Shown: positions 3 through 41,444 of the stretch, one piece after another
How the letters are laid out: each line of letters begins with the position of its first letter
How positions within the stretch are numbered: position 1 is the stretch's first letter
NCBI GenBank assembly: GCA_028821775.1
Contig: JAPKFB010000020.1
Span: 1-64,000 of the forward strand
DNA length: 64,000 bases
Source: Roseibacillus sp.
GTDB lineage: Bacteria > Verrucomicrobiota > Verrucomicrobiia > Verrucomicrobiales > Akkermansiaceae
Direction of reading: 5' to 3'
Program-made: the position numbers and the translations under genes
The notes under the pieces: generated by a model
Seen by the model: the letters and a program-made list of their open reading frames with translations, nothing else
The model's database searches: none
What the model was told of the DNA's origin: nothing

Positions 3-1874
3 GGTGGGCGTCGCGATGATCGGGGCGGTGGGCGCCGTGATGATCGGGGCGGTGGACGTCGTGATGATCGGGGCGGTGGACGTCGTGATGATCGGGGTGG
101 TGGGAGAGGTGGCCAAGGACGCAGTTTTGATAACCGTGACCGGGGCGGGTCCGGGCGGCGCGATGATGACCGAGGCGGCGGATCTCGCGACCGGGAGGAA
201 ATTCCGCCGCCGGCAGGATTCACTTCCGAAGTGATGCCGGTTGAGGATGGCCTCGATAGATTGGCGAAGGAGATTCTGGCGAGTGGCCGGACTTACTCGG
301 TCTTTGATTTGACGAAGCTCGTCCTGGGAGCGCGCGACCGCTTCAACGTAAATTTCCGCACGAAAGCCGAGGGCGGGATCATTCGGTGCAAGAAGGATGG
401 GTCGCTGTGGCTCACCAAAGAGGAGGCGATTCGTCACTTCTGGCACTCGGAGTGGCGGAAGGACTACTACGAGGAAGCCGTTTCCTCGTCCAAGCCTCCC
501 CAGGGAAATTTTCAGACCGTCGCTCGTTGCGGAATCAGCGGAGAGTGGCTGGGCCCGCCGAACTATCACGGTTATCAGCCCGCCCTCATGCAGTTGCACC
601 GCGAGCGCTTTGGGAACATGGCGCTTGAGACCTATAAAAGGAAGGTGCGGATGGAGCGCGGGGAGGAAGCGGTTGCAGCTTGGCTCGACAAGATGTCGAA
701 GCGGATTGCTTACCGCCCTACGGGGGGCGTGCGTCCGGGAGAAGCAGAGCCTGCCAACGAAGAATCGTCCAAAGGCGAGGCGGAAGAACCAGAGGTAGCG
801 ACAGAAGCCCCGGTCGCGGAAGAAACTCCCGTGGACGAAGGGGCCGCTGTTCCGGAAGAATCCGCTGAGGAACGCGAGTCGGCCACGGAGGACGCCACTA
901 TAGAATCTCCTGGCGAAGCTGAGTCCAAGGCGGACGAGGCCATGTCGGAGACGGAAGGGGAGGAGGCTCCAGCAGCTGCTTCCGAGGAGCTTGCTCCGAC
1001 CGAGAGCGATGAGCCACTGCTGGCAGAGAAGCGCGACGTGGAGCGGCATTTCGTGGAGAACTACTTCGAAGAGGCCTTCCAGTCCACCAATCGCGCGTGG
1101 GTGGGGGGCAATATTCCGGGCAATCATCTTTCGCCTGGATTGCTCACGCTCCTGCGCCTGACGGTGGCAGAAGAGCGGCGTTATCCCGGCAAGCTGACCC
1201 CGATGCTTTGTCGTCAACTTTCCGGCCGCCACGTGGCGGTCTTCAAGTGGCGCCGCAAGTTGAAGGCAGGGCCCTCGCGACCGCACCCCGTACCCGAGGA
1301 GATTGTGATTGCTGATCGGCCGAGGAGCTTGCTGAACTGGATCACGGAGAACTCGGGTAAGAAACTTGAGCCACTCTGGGGCGCCTTGCTTCCCAAGGAG
1401 GTCAGCGATGACGAGAAGCGGGAATGGTATCACGATCTTCACTGGTTGCTCAATCAGGGCTATGTCCTCCTGATGGCAGACAGCAGCGTTCATCGGGCCA
1501 AGAAGCCGGGCGAAGAAGCTAACAGTCCCCCGGCCAAGAAGGGGAAGACGAAGAAAACCCGCAGGGGGCAAGCTGAGGCGAGATCGAAAAAGCCCGCAGG
1601 TGGCGCTCCCCAAGAAAAATCTGCCGCAGGTGGCGCTCTCGATTCTGCTCCGAGGACCGAGGAGGCGGAGCCCGTGATTGCCTCGGTGACGATTGGGGGC
1701 ACCTCTGGGCTCTATGCCTTGGGAGGCCGTACTCTGAGCGGCGAGCCGAAATCGATTGAAGCCCTGACGGGCCGGGGATTGTGGCCTTCACGACACCGAC
1801 TCCAAGGTGAAGATGAGGACGAGGGCGAGGGCGATGAGTCTGATTCGAGCGACGGGGTTCTTGTTGACTCATAA
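3..1874 (+). CDS. RGG-repeat, acidic-linker protein of unknown function (5' partial)
   Basis: The frame is open from the left edge, so the true start lies upstream. The first in-frame GTG/ATG pair (231-236) is internal, because codons 3-230 in the same frame encode a Gly/Arg/Asp repeat (RRDDRGGG units) that runs directly into the rest. Three parts follow. A globular N-terminal block (about codons 77-240) contains a C-G-I-S-G-E-W-L-G-P-P-N motif and basic helices. A long Glu/Ala-rich acidic linker separates it from a second globular block (about 1030-1490) that reads like helices with several Trp. A Lys/Arg-rich stretch and an acidic Asp/Glu/Ser tail end the protein. RGG-type repeats usually bind RNA, so an RNA- or nucleoid-associated role is an inference only. 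I do not recognise a named family; I have a general impression of similar uncharacterised proteins in Verrucomicrobiota. The ORF readable from position 4 in another frame is a shadow of the repeat. Confidence 0.75.
   Translation, partial: GGRRDDRGGGRRDDRGGGRRDDRGGGRRDDRGGGRGGQGRSFDNRDRGGSGRRDDDRGGGSRDREEIPPPAGFTSEVMPVEDGLDRLAKEILASGRTYSVFDLTKLVLGARDRFNVNFRTKAEGGIIRCKKDGSLWLTKEEAIRHFWHSEWRKDYYEEAVSSSKPPQGNFQTVARCGISGEWLGPPNYHGYQPALMQLHRERFGNMALETYKRKVRMERGEEAVAAWLDKMSKRIAYRPTGGVRPGEAEPANEESSKGEAEEPEVATEAPVAEETPVDEGAAVPEESAEERESATEDATIESPGEAESKADEAMSETEGEEAPAAASEELAPTESDEPLLAEKRDVERHFVENYFEEAFQSTNRAWVGGNIPGNHLSPGLLTLLRLTVAEERRYPGKLTPMLCRQLSGRHVAVFKWRRKLKAGPSRPHPVPEEIVIADRPRSLLNWITENSGKKLEPLWGALLPKEVSDDEKREWYHDLHWLLNQGYVLLMADSSVHRAKKPGEEANSPPAKKGKTKKTRRGQAEARSKKPAGGAPQEKSAAGGALDSAPRTEEAEPVIASVTIGGTSGLYALGGRTLSGEPKSIEALTGRGLWPSRHRLQGEDEDEGEGDESDSSDGVLVDS
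15..110 (+). repeat. 24-bp in-frame tandem repeat encoding DDRGGGRR units
   Basis: Four consecutive 24-bp units start at 15, 39, 63 and 87. Units 2 and 3 are identical, unit 1 differs by a few third-position changes, and unit 4 decays into GGGRGGQGR. Each unit encodes Asp-Asp-Arg-Gly-Gly-Gly-Arg-Arg. A partial unit precedes at 3-14, so the array probably continues to the left of the window. Because 24 is a multiple of three, unit gain or loss keeps the frame, so copy number may vary between strains. Confidence 0.85.
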
Positions 1875-2002
1875 TCTGTTGATAGAAAGTGAGTAATGAG
1901 GTGTTTGAGCTGGAGCCGCACCCCCGGGTTGGAGCACTCCGTGATCCATGGCCTTCGAAATTGACTAAGACCGAGGTTTTGGCCCACGTTTGATGGCAGA
2001 GA

Positions 2003-2842
2003 GTGAGCTGTCCACCTCCATCACCCGACGGTTGGTTCGGTCGCCAAGACTATGAGCCGGCAGCTTTGCGTCTGGTCAGAGGACCGAACGTAACGCCTCG
2101 CGCGGCGGAGCTTTTTCCATTTTGGTTGGCGCTCGTCGTCGCAACCGTTGCTTTGGGATTGGGTGCGGTGGGAGCCCGCCAATGGATCCTCTCTGGCTTC
2201 TTCGTGATGCAACATGAGGTTCCGTCCGTGCTGGGCATCAGTATTGTTGAGTTGCGAGAGGAAGAGAAGCCGCGGGAAGCACATCTGCCAAGGGTCGCAC
2301 CGGCTCGGCCCTTCGCTCCGAGCACCGTGCGGCCGGTTCCCATTCCCTCGCTTCGCCCGGAGCTTGTGCAGGCGCCGCCCTTGCCCGCGAAGGTGGAGCC
2401 CTACGATCCTTCCGAAGACCTTGAGGCGGCGGCAGATCCATTTCCAACCAGGCCGGAGGCCAAGCCCGAACCGGTGGTGGCCGAGAGGAGGCCGAAGGAA
2501 ATTTCCAAGCCAGAGAGGCGCCGCCCGACCACCCGACAGAATGTGACACCCAAGCTTGTCGCCAAGGGGCCTTCTTATCCGGCTAAGGTGTTGCGTCGTT
2601 ACCAGCCAGCTTATCCCAGGAGCGCGCGTCGCGCCGGGGTGGAAGGGCGGGTGACCTTGTCGGTTCAAGTGCAGGCCGATGGCCGGGTGGGCTCGGTTCG
2701 TGTTTCGCTTTCCTCGGGCAGCGCGGCCCTGGACTCCGCGGCGATTTCCGCCATCAAACGATGGTCCTTTTCTCCGGAGCAGAAGAATGGAAAATCGGTG
2801 CCCACGCTGCTGAATGTGCCGTTCCGATTTGCACTGAATTAG
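2003..2842 (+). CDS. TonB-like energy transducer
   Basis: 279 residues from a GTG start. One hydrophobic segment at about residues 38-58 would anchor the protein in the inner membrane. A Pro/Glu/Lys-rich periplasmic spacer follows (about 75-190). The C-terminal 80 residues form a TonB C-terminal domain, with YQPAYPRSARRAGVEGRV followed by a V-x-V-x-x-D-G-R-V block and the SFSP and PF.F end strands. TonB couples the proton-motive force (through ExbB/ExbD) to outer-membrane TonB-dependent transporters. No exbBD genes lie beside it here, so it is an orphan copy or works with a distant complex. The start is uncertain: the residues before the membrane segment are weakly typical, and no strong Shine-Dalgarno sequence is seen. 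It converges on the ABC-F gene with only 21 bp between stop codons. Confidence 0.85.
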   Translation: MSCPPPSPDGWFGRQDYEPAALRLVRGPNVTPRAAELFPFWLALVVATVALGLGAVGARQWILSGFFVMQHEVPSVLGISIVELREEEKPREAHLPRVAPARPFAPSTVRPVPIPSLRPELVQAPPLPAKVEPYDPSEDLEAAADPFPTRPEAKPEPVVAERRPKEISKPERRRPTTRQNVTPKLVAKGPSYPAKVLRRYQPAYPRSARRAGVEGRVTLSVQVQADGRVGSVRVSLSSGSAALDSAAISAIKRWSFSPEQKNGKSVPTLLNVPFRFALN

Positions 2843-2863
2843 GACGTTGTTCCGAATCGAAAT

Positions 2864-4849
2864 CTAGAGCCCGGAGGTTTCAAGCGTTGTGCGCATGGTC
2901 TCGACCTCGTCAGAGAGCTCCGACCATTCGCTGAAGGCCTTTTCCAATTGGTCACTCACGGACTGAAAGGCTGAACTCGTCTTGCGAAGCTCGTCGGCGT
3001 CGCCGGCCACACCCGGGTTGGACATGTGCTCAGTGAGGGTCTCCTTGGCCGTTTCGTATTCGGAGATGCTCGTTTCGAGTTTCTCCAATCGTTCTTCGAG
3101 TGGTTTGAGGACGCGTTTGCGTTGTTGGCGCAGTTCGGCTTCACGGCGGCGCTGCTCCTTGCGGTTGCTCCCGGCCGTCGCTGCGGTGGAGGATTGGGGA
3201 TTTGCGGTGGGTGCACGGCCTTGCCGCGAGTTAACGGCTTCCTCTTCCGCGACTTTATCGAGGTAGTAGCTCAAGTTGCCATGGTAGAGCTTGGGCGAGC
3301 TGCCCTGGCGGAATTCGAGAGTGCGTTCCACCACCGGATCGAGGAATGAGCGATTGTGAGAGACGATGATGATTGTGCCCGGATAGCTGATGAGGGCGTG
3401 CTGAAGGACCTCCTGCGATTGCATGTCGAGGTGGTTGGTGGGCTCATCGAGAATGAGGAAGTTTGCAGGACGCACCAGCATGCGCACGAGCGCGACCCGC
3501 GAGCGTTCTCCTCCCGAAAGGACCCCCACGTCCTTGAAGACATCGTCCCCGCGAAAGAGAAAGCAGCCGAGGAGGTTGCGGACTAGCCCGATGTTTTCGC
3601 GGCTGGCGACTTCTTCCACCGTTTGGAGGACGGTCCGCCTGGAGGCCAGGTCGTCTGCATGGGTCTGTGAAAAGAAGGAAGGAAAGACCTTGGCGCCGAG
3701 TTCACGGGTGCCCTCGGAAGGATCTTCCTCGCCCGTGATGAGGCGGCAGAAGGTTGACTTGCCAGCGCCATTGGGACCGACCACCGCGATCTTTTGTCCG
3801 CGAGTGATTTCGAAGTCAAAATCCGCGAAGACGGAGAGGTCGCCGTAGCGCTGGGCACTTCCTTCGAGCTTTGCCACGCAGTGGGCACTGGGTGGGGGAG
3901 GGGGGAAGGTGAAGTTCATGGACCCCTCCTCCACCTCCAGAACGATGCGCTCCATCTTGTCGAGCTGCTTGATGCGGCTCTGCACTTGGGACGCTTTGGT
4001 GTTCTTGGAGCGGAAGCGATTGATCCACTTCTCGGTCTTTTCGATCTCGCGCTGCTGGGCGCGGTATTGTTTCTCGAGGATCTCCTTGCGCAGGGCGGCC
4101 TCCTTCACAAAGAAGGAGTAGTTGCCCGCGTATTCGGAAGCTTGTCCGCGTTCGAAGGCGATCGTTCGGGTAGTGAGGTCATCGAGGAGCGAGCGGTCGT
4201 GAGAGATGATCGCAATTGCGCCCTTATAATCGCGCAGGTGACCTTCCATCCAGCGTTGGGCGTCCACATCGAGGTGATTGGTGGGCTCGTCGAGGAGGAG
4301 GACGTCCGGTTCCTGAAGGAAGAGTTTCGCCATCGCGATGCGCATCTGCCAGCCCCCGGAAAATTCTCCGCAATCGCGTTGAAAGTCGCTCCGTGGAAAA
4401 CCGAGTCCCCCGAGGACGGATTCGATGCGCGGCTTGATGCGGGTGGGGTCAAAGTGCTCGAGTTTGAGTTCGAGGTCGCCGATTTCGTGAAGTTGATCGG
4501 AGTAGGGCGCGGAGCGGGGGTCGAGGTTTTCCAGTTCCTTGGAGAGGCGATCGATCTCCCGTTGCAGGTTTTTCGCTTCCGCGAAGGCGGACTCCGCTTC
4601 GTCCCACAGGCTGTGACCTTCGAGGTGGATGCCGTCCTGGGGCAGATAACCCACCCGGCAGCTCTTTGGTTTGGTGATGCGGCCGGCATTGGTTTCGATC
4701 ACGCCAGCGATGCATTTCATGAGGGTGGACTTGCCGGTTCCGTTGGATCCGGCGAATGAAATACGGTCTTCATTGCCCACGACAAAGGAGAGCCCGTCGA
4801 ACAAAACGCGGGCTCCGACCTCGACACGGAGTTGCTGAATGGCCAGCAC
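2864..4849 (-). CDS. ABC-F family ATPase (Uup/EttA-like)
   Basis: 661 residues with two ABC ATPase domains and no membrane segments, the ABC-F layout. Domain 1 has Walker A GSNGTGKST (34-42), signature FSGGWQMR (about 163-170) and Walker B DEPTNHLD (187-194). Domain 2 has Walker A GPNGAGKST (358-366), an LSGGERSR signature and a second DEPTNHLD. A basic inter-domain linker (about 250-310) corresponds to the ABC-F arm/linker that contacts tRNA or rRNA in characterised members. A charged coiled-coil tail (about 570-660) resembles the Uup C-terminal domain. ABC-F proteins act on the ribosome in translation or ribosome biogenesis; the specific paralogue cannot be assigned from this sequence alone. 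The ATG at 4849 begins immediately before the first beta strand, so the start is convincing. Confidence 0.93.
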   Translation of the reverse strand: MLAIQQLRVEVGARVLFDGLSFVVGNEDRISFAGSNGTGKSTLMKCIAGVIETNAGRITKPKSCRVGYLPQDGIHLEGHSLWDEAESAFAEAKNLQREIDRLSKELENLDPRSAPYSDQLHEIGDLELKLEHFDPTRIKPRIESVLGGLGFPRSDFQRDCGEFSGGWQMRIAMAKLFLQEPDVLLLDEPTNHLDVDAQRWMEGHLRDYKGAIAIISHDRSLLDDLTTRTIAFERGQASEYAGNYSFFVKEAALRKEILEKQYRAQQREIEKTEKWINRFRSKNTKASQVQSRIKQLDKMERIVLEVEEGSMNFTFPPPPPSAHCVAKLEGSAQRYGDLSVFADFDFEITRGQKIAVVGPNGAGKSTFCRLITGEEDPSEGTRELGAKVFPSFFSQTHADDLASRRTVLQTVEEVASRENIGLVRNLLGCFLFRGDDVFKDVGVLSGGERSRVALVRMLVRPANFLILDEPTNHLDMQSQEVLQHALISYPGTIIIVSHNRSFLDPVVERTLEFRQGSSPKLYHGNLSYYLDKVAEEEAVNSRQGRAPTANPQSSTAATAGSNRKEQRRREAELRQQRKRVLKPLEERLEKLETSISEYETAKETLTEHMSNPGVAGDADELRKTSSAFQSVSDQLEKAFSEWSELSDEVETMRTTLETSGL

Positions 4850-32338: not shown

Positions 32339-33508
32339 GTGCGTCCGGTTACTCGATCCGCCGAAATCCCTCGGGAGGATTCACCCACCAGCGCAACCTT
32401 GGACACATTCAAAGATCTTGGGGTCCCTCCTGACCTGATCAAAGGGCTGGAAGAGCTCGGTATTCTCACCCCTACCGAGATTCAAGGGCTGGCGATTCCC
32501 TTCCTGATGGTGAATGGCGGCGATCTCATCGCTCAAGCCCAGACGGGCACGGGCAAGACTGCAGCCTTCGGGTTGCCGATGCTCACCAAGGTCGATCCCA
32601 AGTCGAAGGAGGTCCAGGGATTGGTGGTGGCGCCGACGAGGGAACTGGCCAAGCAAATCGGCAAACAGCTTTTTCGTTACACGAAGTATTCGACCAAGAT
32701 TTTTGTCGAGGTGGTGGGTGGGGGAGACAGTTTCGATCGTCAGGCTGCGGCACTGCAGCGACCTACCCAGATTGTGGTGGGCACTCCGGGGCGCATCCTC
32801 GACTTGATCCGGCGCAAGGCGCTCAACCTGTCGTCGGTGCGGCATCTCGTGCTCGATGAAGCCGATGAGATGCTGAGCATGGGATTCAAGAAGGAATTGA
32901 AACAGATCATCTACCTCGCCCGGGATCGGCGCAGTACCTGGTTGTTTTCTGCAACCTTCCCGGACGCGATTGAGGAGCTCATCAAAGGGTCCATGTCTCC
33001 GGACCCCCATTCGCTGAAGGTCGATGCCTCGCATGTCGTCAACCGGGACATTGAGCATCGCTACGCCACCTGTGGTCGGGGGGACAAGACCGATTTCGTG
33101 GCCGGATTTCTGAAACAGCAGAAGGAAAAGCGGGGCCTGATTTTTTGTCGAACCAAGGCCGGGGCCATGAAGCTCGGCCAGCAGTTGACGACCCTCGGGC
33201 TCTCGGTGGGAGTCCTCCAGGGGGACTTGGTGCAGAAAGAGCGGGACAAGGTGATGCGCGCCTTCAAGAAGGAACGGCTTCAGTTTCTCATTGCCACCGA
33301 TGTGGCGGCGCGTGGTATCGATGTGGAAGGATTAGCCTTCGTGATTCATCACCAGCTTCCCGATCAGATCGAGTACTACACCCACCGGAGCGGTCGAACC
33401 GCGAGGGCGGGCAAGAAAGGGGTCTCGATTGTCCTGATCGAATCGAAGGAGCGGCGGCGTTTGGAAAAGATCGAGGAAGAGTTGGGTTTGACCTTCACTC
33501 AGCTCTGA
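32339..33508 (+). CDS. DEAD-box ATP-dependent RNA helicase
   Basis: 389 residues from a GTG preceded by an AGGGCAGG-like ribosome-binding sequence. All core motifs are present: Q-motif and IQGLAIP (about 45-54), motif I QTGTGKT (68-74), PTREL, TPGR, motif II DEAD (172-175), SAT (203-205), a C-terminal ARGIDVEGL and HRSGRTARAG. It unwinds or remodels RNA duplexes, probably in ribosome assembly, RNA decay or cold adaptation. There is no long basic C-terminal extension, unlike CsdA/DeaD, so it is a minimal-core member. It converges on the sulfatase-SGNH gene. Confidence 0.95.
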   Translation: MRPVTRSAEIPREDSPTSATLDTFKDLGVPPDLIKGLEELGILTPTEIQGLAIPFLMVNGGDLIAQAQTGTGKTAAFGLPMLTKVDPKSKEVQGLVVAPTRELAKQIGKQLFRYTKYSTKIFVEVVGGGDSFDRQAAALQRPTQIVVGTPGRILDLIRRKALNLSSVRHLVLDEADEMLSMGFKKELKQIIYLARDRRSTWLFSATFPDAIEELIKGSMSPDPHSLKVDASHVVNRDIEHRYATCGRGDKTDFVAGFLKQQKEKRGLIFCRTKAGAMKLGQQLTTLGLSVGVLQGDLVQKERDKVMRAFKKERLQFLIATDVAARGIDVEGLAFVIHHQLPDQIEYYTHRSGRTARAGKKGVSIVLIESKERRRLEKIEEELGLTFTQL

Positions 33509-38350: not shown

Positions 38351-38438
38351 TAGCAGACTGTTGAATTTCTCCACAACGCCGCGCCACTCCATCCAACGGG
38401 TTCCGCGCAGCATTCTCGAGAAATTCAACACCCTGCTA
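38351..38438. repeat. MITE/REP-like element with 21-bp imperfect inverted repeats
   Basis: The left arm (38351-38371) and the right arm (38418-38438) are reverse complements at 19 of 21 positions. They are built around GTTGAATTTCTC / GAGAAATTCAAC. The 46-bp interior is GC-rich with no ORF. The size and the terminal repeats fit a miniature transposable element or a REP-type palindrome. No second copy is obvious in this window. Confidence 0.55.
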
Positions 38439-38505
38439 AAAGGGCCGGGCCAAAGGAAAAAAGACTGCGACTCCTGTTTCGCTGAGGAGTTTGATCTCCT
38501 TGGAC

Positions 38506-39783
38506 ATGTTGGAGAACGCGAGAATCACAGGATTGGTGGCTGCCGTTGCCCTGAGTGGCATGGTGATGGCACAGGAGAATCGACCTGGAGCGGGCCGCGA
38601 TTCGTTGTTTCCCATCCTCGATAAAAATGGCGATGGAACACTGGGGCAGGGGGAACTTGACCTTGCGATCTCTTCGCTACGCAAACTGGATCGCAATCAG
38701 GATGGGACCATCTCGCAAGAGGAGTTGCGGGCAGATCAGGGGAGTGGAGGAAGTCCGCGTCCCGGAGGGAGTCCCCGCTCCGGAGGGCGAGCCATTGCTG
38801 CGCCGACGTGGTCTGAGATCGATCAGGATGGTGACGGGAAAGTGAATCTCAAGGAAGCGCCGGAACGCATGAAGGGGCGCTTTGATCGCATGGATCAGAA
38901 TGGCGATGGGTTTCTCGACAAAGAGGAGCAGGAGCGCATCGACCAAATGTTCCGTCGCATGAGAGGGGGCGGTGGGCAGTCCCCGGAAGGTCGTGGTCGC
39001 GGGCGCTCTCCCCGCGGTGGAGGCAGTGGGAGTGAGGACGTGTGGAAGATCCTTGCCGAAAAGTACGACAAGGATCGGAATGGGGAAATTTCCAAGGAGG
39101 AGTACACCCGCGGTGGGGAGAAGTTTACGCAGCTTGATCGCAATGAAGACGGGAAGCTCAACGAGGCGGATTTCCTCGGTGGGCGTAATAGAGGTGGGGG
39201 GCGTGGTGGTCGCGGTCGCGGGCCAGGAAGAGACGGTGGGGCGGGTGCGCGCAGTGGAGTTCCTGAGGAAGGAGCGGATGCTCCAGATTTTGAGTTGGCC
39301 TACGCCTCCAAGGATGGCACTGCCAAGAACGGCAGGAAGGTCAAGCTCTCCAGCTTCAAGGGAGACAAACCTGTCGCGCTCGTCTTTGGGAGCTACACCT
39401 GACCGCCCTTTCGCAGGGAAGCCGGTCGGCTTACCGAACTTTACAACAACTACCACAAAGAGGTTCAGTTTTTCCTGGTCTACATCAAGGAAGCCCATGC
39501 CCTCGACTCGCGCTCTCCAAGCAGCTTCAAGGGCATCGAGGATCCCATCACTTTGGAGGAGCGCAACAATGTTTGCGTGGCTGCGATCGAGGATCTCAAA
39601 CTGCCCCTTCCCGCGATTGTGGATGACATGAAGGATACCGCGAACAGGGCGTACTCGGCCCAGCCTGATCGGCTCTATCTCATCTCCAAGGACGGCACGA
39701 TCGCCTTCGGTGGTGGCAAGGGGCCGGGAGGCTTCAAGCCGGATGAGTTGGAGGACGCGATTAAGAAGGAACTCGCGAAGTAG
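38506..39783 (+). CDS. EF-hand, deiodinase-like selenoprotein (in-frame TGA = selenocysteine)
   Basis: 425 residues if the TGA at 39400-39402 is read as Sec299. A Sec signal (about 1-22, VMAQEN) opens the protein. Six EF-hand loops follow, starting at D39, D62, D106, D130, D188 and D211, each with a standard D-x-[DN]-x-[DN]-G pattern. A Gly/Arg-rich linker runs from about 230 to 262. The thioredoxin-fold domain (about 265-425) reads GDKPVALVFGSYT, then TGA, then PPFRREAGRL. This is the deiodinase active-site pattern (S-x-T-U-P-P-F), and the downstream VYIKEAHALDS matches the family's conserved EAH block. The frame remains open for 127 codons after TGA to TAG at 39781. Start choice: GAGGAG (38484-38489) is 16 nt from the ATG at 38506; an in-frame TTG at 38500 is better spaced. 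It is probably a secreted thiol/selenol reductase; halogen removal is only a family-based possibility. Confidence 0.85.
39400..39437 (+). promoter_or_regulatory. Candidate bacterial SECIS element
   Basis: A perfect inverted repeat AAGCC / GGCTT (39419-39423 and 39428-39432) closes a GGTC loop. The first loop G is 21 nt after the last base of TGA. Bacterial SECIS elements recognised by SelB lie directly behind the UGA within the coding region and usually show a short stem with G and U in the apical loop. Additional GG/CC pairing below the stem is possible (39416-39417 with 39434-39435). Folding was judged by eye. Confidence 0.6.
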
Positions 39784-39872
39784 CTCGCGAAGAAACTCGG
39801 GAAGGGATTCGAGAAGGAACAGGAGGGATTCGGCCTGAATTCTCGGCACCCTCCTTTTCGGACGGAGGCGAA

Positions 39873-41444
39873 TTGAATTTGCCAAAGCTGGTCCTGTCGC
39901 GAGGATCCGGGGGTGATGTTCAATGGGCAGAGGAGATGACGGGAGGAGTGCCATTCATCCTCGCGGCGTTCGGCCATCTTCGGGTGGCGGACGTGATTGT
40001 TCTGGCAATCTACCTTGCCGGAATCGTCGGATTGGGATGCTGGTTGATGCGTCGCAGCAAGACTGCGGAGGGATTCACGACCGGCAATCGGTCGATGGCG
40101 GGCTGGGTGGTGGGCTTCTCGATCTTTGGAACCTACGTGAGTAGCATCAGCTTCCTCGCCAATCCTGGGAAGAGCTACCTGGGCAATTGGAATCCTTTTG
40201 TCTTTGGTCTTGGGATTCCATTGGCCGCCTGGATTGCCACCAAATGGTTTGTGCCATTTTATCGTCGCGGGGGCTCCGTTTCGGCCTTCGCCCATCTGGA
40301 GGATCGCTTTGGGCTTTGGGCCCGGTGGTATGCCGGCATTTGTTTTGTGCTCATGCAGCTGAGCCGGATGGGCTCCATCCTCTTCCTAGTCGCGCTCGCG
40401 GTGGGTCAGTTGACGGGTTGGAGCACGGCCGGAATCATCGTGGGGGTCGGTCTCCTCGTTGTGGCCTATACCATGTTGGGAGGAATCGAAGCCGTGATCT
40501 GGACCGATGTGGTGCAGAGTATCGTGCTCACGGTAGGGGCGCTCATCGCTCTCTGGATTCTGCTCTCCGGTTCGCCGGAAGTGGCGGTGCACTTGCGCGA
40601 ACACGCGAGCGAGAAAATGAGCCTGGGAAGTCTTGGCGCGAGTCTCACGGAGTCGACCTTCTGGGTGGTCTTGATTTACGGCTTCTTCATGAATCTCAAC
40701 AATTTCGGGATCGATCAAACCTATGTTCAACGCTACCTCGCGGCGAAGAGTGACGAGTCCGCGAAACGCAGTGTGTGGCTGGGAGGGTTGATGTATCTGC
40801 CGGTCTCGGCGCTGCTCTTTCTCGTCGGCACGGCTTTGTTCTCCTACTACCAAGTGCACGCTCATGAGATGTCCGCGGAGCTTGCGGGACGACTGGCCGA
40901 GGGACAGGACGGGGACAAGGTGTTTCCTTTCTTCATCGCGACCCAGATGCCGGCTGGCATCACAGGGCTCCTGGTGGCGGCCATTCTTGCGGCGGCGATG
41001 AGTAGTGTGGACTCTTCGCTCAATTCTTCAGCCACCCTCGTGCTGGAGGACTTTGTGAGGCGCACCGGAATGGGGATGAGCAAGTCTCAGAAAGGGGAGC
41101 TCCGGGTGCTTCATCTCGCTACCGCGATTTTTGGATTGCTGGGAATTGGGGTGGCTCTTGCCATGATGGGAGTGTCGAGTGTGCTCGATACCTGGTGGAC
41201 CTTGGCGGGAATCTTTGCCGGCGGAGTGCTCGGACTGTTTTTGCTCGGGATGCTGGTGGCGAGGGTGAATACTCGCGCTGCGGGAATTGCAGCGGGGTGC
41301 GGAGTCGGCTTGATTGTGTTCTTGAGCCTGGATGCCAACCCGCTCCACAAATTTCTCACCGTCGTGATTGGAACGTCCGCAATCGTGATCATCGGATTCG
41401 TCCTGACGGTCGTTCTCGAACGAGGGCGAGGGGAGAGCCGCTGA
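39873..41444 (+). CDS. Sodium:solute symporter (SSS family)
   Basis: 523 residues from a TTG with GGAGG five bases upstream (39864-39868). An ATG at 39939 with AGAGGAG directly before it is the alternative. About 13 hydrophobic segments are present. Family landmarks are GFTTGNRSMAGWVVGFSIFGTYVSS, AYTMLGGIEAVIWTDVVQ (the SSS signature), FGIDQTYVQRYLAAKS and AAAMSSVDSSLNS. It imports a small solute with Na+. The substrate is not predictable; SSS members carry sugars, sialic acid, amino acids and, in animals, iodide. It starts 89 bp after the selenoprotein stop on the same strand, so the two may be cotranscribed. Confidence 0.92.
   Translation: MNLPKLVLSRGSGGDVQWAEEMTGGVPFILAAFGHLRVADVIVLAIYLAGIVGLGCWLMRRSKTAEGFTTGNRSMAGWVVGFSIFGTYVSSISFLANPGKSYLGNWNPFVFGLGIPLAAWIATKWFVPFYRRGGSVSAFAHLEDRFGLWARWYAGICFVLMQLSRMGSILFLVALAVGQLTGWSTAGIIVGVGLLVVAYTMLGGIEAVIWTDVVQSIVLTVGALIALWILLSGSPEVAVHLREHASEKMSLGSLGASLTESTFWVVLIYGFFMNLNNFGIDQTYVQRYLAAKSDESAKRSVWLGGLMYLPVSALLFLVGTALFSYYQVHAHEMSAELAGRLAEGQDGDKVFPFFIATQMPAGITGLLVAAILAAAMSSVDSSLNSSATLVLEDFVRRTGMGMSKSQKGELRVLHLATAIFGLLGIGVALAMMGVSSVLDTWWTLAGIFAGGVLGLFLLGMLVARVNTRAAGIAAGCGVGLIVFLSLDANPLHKFLTVVIGTSAIVIIGFVLTVVLERGRGESR

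Follow-up and report, generated by a model that had tools for sequence, protein, structure and literature searches.

A putative exported deiodinase-like selenoprotein with six EF-hands encoded in the genome of a Roseibacillus species

Introduction

Bacterial deiodinase-like proteins, in both selenocysteine (Sec) and cysteine forms, were described in 2005 from the Sargasso Sea (PMC1088965), and they reappear in a 2008 list and in subsequent reviews. A 2021 study of the Global Ocean Sampling data reported a fusion between a deiodinase-like selenoprotein and an EF-hand domain (PMC9402790, Figure 2B). For the mammalian enzymes, proton-relay residues have been described (PMC11592359), and a proximal Cys is needed by DIO1 for glutathione recycling and pairs with Sec as a selenenyl-sulfide in human DIO1 (PMC9141512). 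Calcium and a Sec redox site also meet in selenoprotein N, whose redox activity is described as being controlled by calcium (PMC7474598).

Here we describe a gene with an in-frame TGA in a 64,000-nucleotide stretch of a Roseibacillus genome (hereafter the window), which encodes a deiodinase-like domain preceded by six EF-hands. The protein shares the Sec position, a candidate SECIS-type hairpin and Cys-containing relatives with the bacterial deiodinase-like selenoproteins (PF00837, PMC1088965), to which it adds six EF-hands and a whole genome with Sec machinery. The combination in Figure 2B of PMC9402790 is the same, an EF-hand domain (PF13499) and a Sec deiodinase-like domain, but that fusion is known from metagenome sequence, whereas the window protein carries six hands and comes from an assembled genome. 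It has the fold, the Sec site and Ser, Thr, Tyr, Glu and His relay residues of mammalian Dio2 and Dio3; unlike these enzymes it is apparently exported rather than membrane-anchored, and EF-hands have been added.

The novelty is modest, this kind of protein being already known and the window gene a well-documented further case. An earlier note on this DNA treated a six-EF-hand fusion of this type as not known in Verrucomicrobiota; on novelty it needs correcting, as the joining of an EF-hand domain to a Sec deiodinase-like domain was already published (PMC9402790), and NCBIfam already has a model for deiodinase family proteins (NF038285). Apparently new are a six-hand form found together with the Sec machinery in one assembled genome, the recurrence of the architecture across one bacterial class and, alongside the gene in this genome, a member of a separate sister family that also has Sec. 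An architecture previously known from a metagenome survey is thereby given a genome-level context of Sec machinery, Cys relatives and structure.

Results and discussion

The gene and its in-frame TGA

Translation, ORF calls and the match to PF00837 place the gene at 38506–39783 on the forward strand, where it encodes 425 amino acids followed by a TAG stop when its single internal TGA (codon 299, 39400–39402) is read through. The start codon may be ATG 38506 or a TTG further upstream. The residues around the TGA read ALVFGSYT-U-PPFRREAGRL...VYIKEAHALDS, and both translation and homologue alignments put codon 299 at the catalytic position. The 126 codons 3′ of the TGA keep a coding composition (GC of 0.60/0.38/0.74 at positions 1/2/3) and this region could be aligned to 15 relatives at 37–44% identity. 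The earlier note had argued that the frame is continuous across the TGA, which is borne out by the intact 425-residue frame and by PF00837 spanning the codon, and that the downstream part keeps its coding character, with which both base composition and alignability agree. It had also foreseen that automated annotation would split the gene, and ORF calling under table 11 indeed returned two pieces, 38491–39402 (303 aa) and 39553–39783 (76 aa). Ordinary ORF calling stops at the TGA and so reports an EF-hand protein that lacks the active site; the exported selenoenzymes of this group have therefore probably been under-counted.

Sequence comparisons strongly support the reading of TGA 39400–39402 as selenocysteine. 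We consider the product to be an exported Ca2+-binding selenoprotein, in which Sec299 would be the nucleophile of a deiodinase-type thioredoxin fold with a probable role in thiol-dependent reduction, and give this reading a probability of about 0.85. The protein is very likely an exported redox enzyme that uses Sec299 as its catalytic selenol.

No close orthologue suited to a selection test was found, and an Rfam search of the whole window gave no match. Between the gene and its upstream neighbour an inverted repeat was noticed by eye (GTTGAATTTCTC ... GAGAAATTCAAC; 38363–38435). A second open frame, also of 425 aa, overlaps the gene on the opposite strand (38677–39954); it shows no sign of being a gene and might mislead gene callers.

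Fold and active site of the deiodinase-like domain

The domain covers residues 255–421 (39268–39768, forward strand) and matches PF00837 (iodothyronine deiodinase) across the TGA, with an E-value of 1.2e-23 and 84.1 bits against a gathering threshold of 27. The best curated NCBIfam model was NF038285, 'deiodinase family protein' (deiodinase_rel; E 1e-59, 202.5 bits with Sec scored as Cys), yet the score lies under the 250-bit cut-off of that model, as did those of all nine relatives tested. In a profile search of PDB sequences, mouse Dio3 (4tr3, 1.8e-35) and Dio2 (9h48, 2.8e-29) came far above thioredoxin-like proteins. Modelled with AlphaFold2 (pLDDT 90.5, pTM 0.88), the domain likewise had its best structural matches in mouse Dio2 (TM 0.83) and Dio3 (TM 0.82).

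At the active site, the S-x-T-Sec-P-P-F motif and EAH block recognised in the earlier note are both kept, as S-x-T-U-P-P-F and Y-x-x-E-A-H, and the alignment identifies the relay Ser, Thr, Tyr, Glu and His as S296, T298, Y326, E329 and H331. Three features of iodothyronine deiodinases are absent from the aligned window protein. Pro347 stands at the position of the second proton-relay His (Dio2 His182), the Dio loop Trp is missing, and Tyr297 replaces the proximal Cys two residues before Sec. The latter position holds His or Tyr in most Sec-type relatives, and elsewhere is DIO1 Cys124, DIO3 Cys168 or, in the mouse Dio2 sequence, Ala. With these three residues missing, deiodination of thyronines is unlikely, and the label 'deiodinase-like' should not be equated with thyroid-hormone deiodination.

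Cys357 (39574–39576) is the only Cys of the protein, the Sec position aside. In many Sec-type relatives the helix that follows the loop carries a Cys, near the Cys357 column but not in it; on this ground Cys357 is proposed as a candidate resolving thiol. Given the fold and the work on Dio enzymes, Sec299 would attack an electrophile, for example a peroxide or an organohalide, and become oxidised; recycling would then run through a selenenyl-sulfide, in which Cys357 may take part, and would draw on an external reductant. With the proximal Cys and second relay His replaced and Cys357 available as a candidate thiol, we favour a Sec-dependent thiol peroxidase or reductase acting outside the cytoplasm over hormone-type deiodination.

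A strict reductive dehalogenase, which removes iodine or bromine from aromatics as the Dio enzymes do, would fit the nearest solved structures being Dio2 and Dio3, the conservation of both active-site blocks and the placing of K405 at the Dio2-Lys241/Dio3-Arg275 position in alignments read by hand; however, the loss of all three features named above makes it improbable. A sodium:solute symporter gene (PF00474; 39873–41444, forward strand) lies directly downstream, and the family of such symporters includes iodide carriers. The possible link to iodide was dropped, as no such gene was seen beside the relatives, whose loci mostly covered about 1.5 kb of flank, and this too counts against a dehalogenase.

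Probable export signal and EF-hands

Residues 1 to approximately 22 (MLENARITGLVAAVALSGMVMA; 38506–38571) form a probable signal peptide, recognised by eye; an N-terminal hydrophobic stretch is common to the relatives, often with A-Q at its end. Six 12-residue loops of the canonical DxDxDG...E type then follow, all N-terminal to the deiodinase domain and identified by Pfam and by the loop pattern: DKNGDGTLGQGE (38620–38655, starting at D39), DRNQDGTISQEE (38689–38724, D62), DQDGDGKVNLKE (38821–38856, D106), DQNGDGFLDKEE (38893–38928, D130), DKDRNGEISKEE (39067–39102, D188) and DRNEDGKLNEAD (39136–39171, D211), all on the forward strand. Several EF-hand Pfam models match before PF00837, PF13499 with 85.8 bits against a cut-off of 30, and the count of six made in the earlier note stands.

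The six hands would bind Ca2+ outside the cytoplasm, where they may stabilise, localise or regulate the enzyme. A more specific proposal is that extracytoplasmic calcium switches or tunes Sec299, which would make the protein a calcium-sensing selenoenzyme and, with the sister protein described below, part of a group theme of exported Ca2+-binding selenoproteins; we regard this as speculative and improbable. Selenoprotein N (SELENON/SEPN1), as described in the source cited above, likewise combines an EF-hand with a Sec redox site and lies in a compartment other than the cytosol. If calcium does control the redox domain, the window protein would be a bacterial parallel to it; the likeness would at most be a functional one, and homology is not implied.

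A paralogue of the EF-hand half alone, 184 aa long and without the redox domain, is encoded on another contig of the same genome (C156, 1459–2013, reverse strand; L002); it is 54% identical to residues 10–177 and apparently exported. Its existence suggests that the N-terminal part may work alone, and Sec decoding in general competes with termination. These points would suit a selenium-dependent switch between two products, in which cells short of selenium would make a 298-residue EF-hand protein with no functional redox domain. Such a product would, however, still end in 44 residues of the thioredoxin fold, and many Sec relatives have no EF-hand at all. We think such a switch improbable.

Sec and Cys relatives

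PF00837 was found in 46 of the 387 genomes of the order and in 6/388 across the phylum, and a profile built from the Sec-type domains (A1) gave further matches in genomes of the family and class. The earlier note had asked whether homologues carry Cys or Sec at position 299: more than 40 distinct relatives, spread over many genera, have TGA there, and nearly all of the rest have a Cys codon. One Ala exception occurs in the first set (L067), a protein whose second domain has Cys. Named organisms with Cys relatives include Opitutaceae, Acidobacteriota, a Planctomycetia bacterium and others, the Opitutus/Opitutaceae proteins being 40–47% identical, although the scan that yielded them entered Sec as Cys and could detect Cys forms only. 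One further deiodinase-like Sec gene (L058/L103; G092 C2:322056-322572) has its match split over two frames and looks frameshifted or misassembled after the TGA.

The gene selA was present in 19/22 genomes with a TGA copy, the three misses being 83%, 59% (with a weak partial match) and 53% complete, compared with 10 of the 22 genomes with Cys copies only. Restricting the comparison to genomes of 84% completeness or more gave 18/18 and 9/20 (Fisher p 1.4e-4, an optimistic value since the genomes compared are related).

In the trees the window protein is sister to a Sec-type clade (support 96/91 with 16 others and 98/86 with 17 others), and this nearest clade is all-Sec. Its members, for example L137, L138, L141, L114 and L051, have zero to three recognisable upstream EF loops, so that the six of the window protein are the highest number in the clade by regular-expression counts. 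Across several families of one class the architecture recurs with 0 to 6 EF-hands. The EF-hand label requires at least four changes on the tree, which indicates that EF-hands were gained or lost repeatedly.

A candidate SECIS-like hairpin 3′ of the TGA

A candidate bacterial SECIS hairpin, GGGAAGCCGGTCGGCTTACC (39416–39435, forward strand), takes the form GGGAAGCC-GGUC-GGCUUACC and has its apical loop, GGUC, 21 nt downstream of the UGA. In most Sec-type genes a hairpin is possible whose loop lies 20–24 nt after the UGA and has a G near its start. With synonymous recodings as the reference, the 36 TGA loci had stronger hairpins than the 48 Cys loci (Mann-Whitney p 2e-7, uncorrected for relatedness). 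In an alignment of 21 TGA loci, 19 of them distinct, the named helix was paired in 81.6% of cells, against 27–43% when it was slid along the alignment, and the covariation score, with 14 double-changed cells, was reached by none of 500 shuffles; this count tests a pre-named helix rather than one predicted de novo, and RNAalifold returned no consensus structure for the same alignment. Taken alone the window hairpin is not unusual, 11% of synonymous recodings being equally stable. Its pairing is offset by one base from the family helix, and the minimum-energy fold (−12.4 kcal/mol) pairs the UGA region differently. As a set, the TGA copies thus appear to share a covarying SECIS-like hairpin, which that of the window fits while not being significant by itself. 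In the mechanism we propose, this hairpin just 3′ of the UGA, together with SelB and Sec-tRNA(UCA), would lead the ribosome to insert selenocysteine instead of stopping.

The TGA might instead be a nonsense mutation or a sequencing error in a Cys-type deiodinase-like gene. It is one base away from TGC or TGT, Cys relatives exist, and the window hairpin carries no significance of its own; against this, TGA recurs in the matching column of the relatives counted above, the nearest clade is all-Sec, the frame 3′ of the codon is intact and the genome holds a complete Sec machinery. A nonsense mutation is accordingly very improbable, and the sequencing error that the earlier note named as a possible refutation is excluded in practice by the occurrence of TGA in the matching column of independent genomes.

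Selenocysteine machinery of the genome

The assembly to which the window belongs comprises 5.24 Mb in 200 contigs and is 94.5% complete. It contains the whole set of genes whose presence the earlier note had proposed to check: selA (492 bits, cut-off 268), selB (300 bits, cut-off 242), selD (365 bits, cut-off 125) and selC, a tRNA-Sec with anticodon UCA (68.6 bits) on which ARAGORN agrees. A tRNA scan of the window found none, the tRNA-Sec sitting on another contig. The selD gene (L025; C109, reverse strand) itself contains an in-frame TGA, in the motif SCAGUASKLG, at the position where SelD usually has Sec.

A genome-wide altered code with TGA as an ordinary amino acid, though it would likewise leave the frame open, was rejected as next to impossible, since TGA still ends 14/37 long ORFs in the window (some of the 37 surely spurious), at least two of them with clear family matches (the Pfam-matched symporter at 39873–41444 and a helicase at 32339–33508), and since selABCD with tRNA-Sec is present.

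A sister Sec-type gene in the same genome

A second gene with an in-frame TGA was observed on contig C59 of the genome (P0002, L005; G000 C59:47526-51185, ORF around 916–3012; L003 covers the same gene). Its product has a thioredoxin-like domain with the motif GCLTUPPF, EF-hands on both sides of this domain and an extra beta-rich C-terminal domain, and shares 33% identity with the window protein across 127 residues. The own-genome copy did not reach the Pfam cut-offs for redox families, and a DsbD-like identity for the C-terminal domain was set aside as it had no Pfam support. Covariation of the SECIS region gave no double changes in this family, the sequences being too alike. The structural model, of lower confidence (pLDDT 75.9), resembles ResA-type thioredoxins; its best-scoring match was the C-terminal part of DipZ, which superposed poorly. 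In the trees the C59 family forms its own clade (support 100/100); it occurs, with the TGA as the sole internal stop, in 11 of the genus's 15 genomes, the own genome counted.
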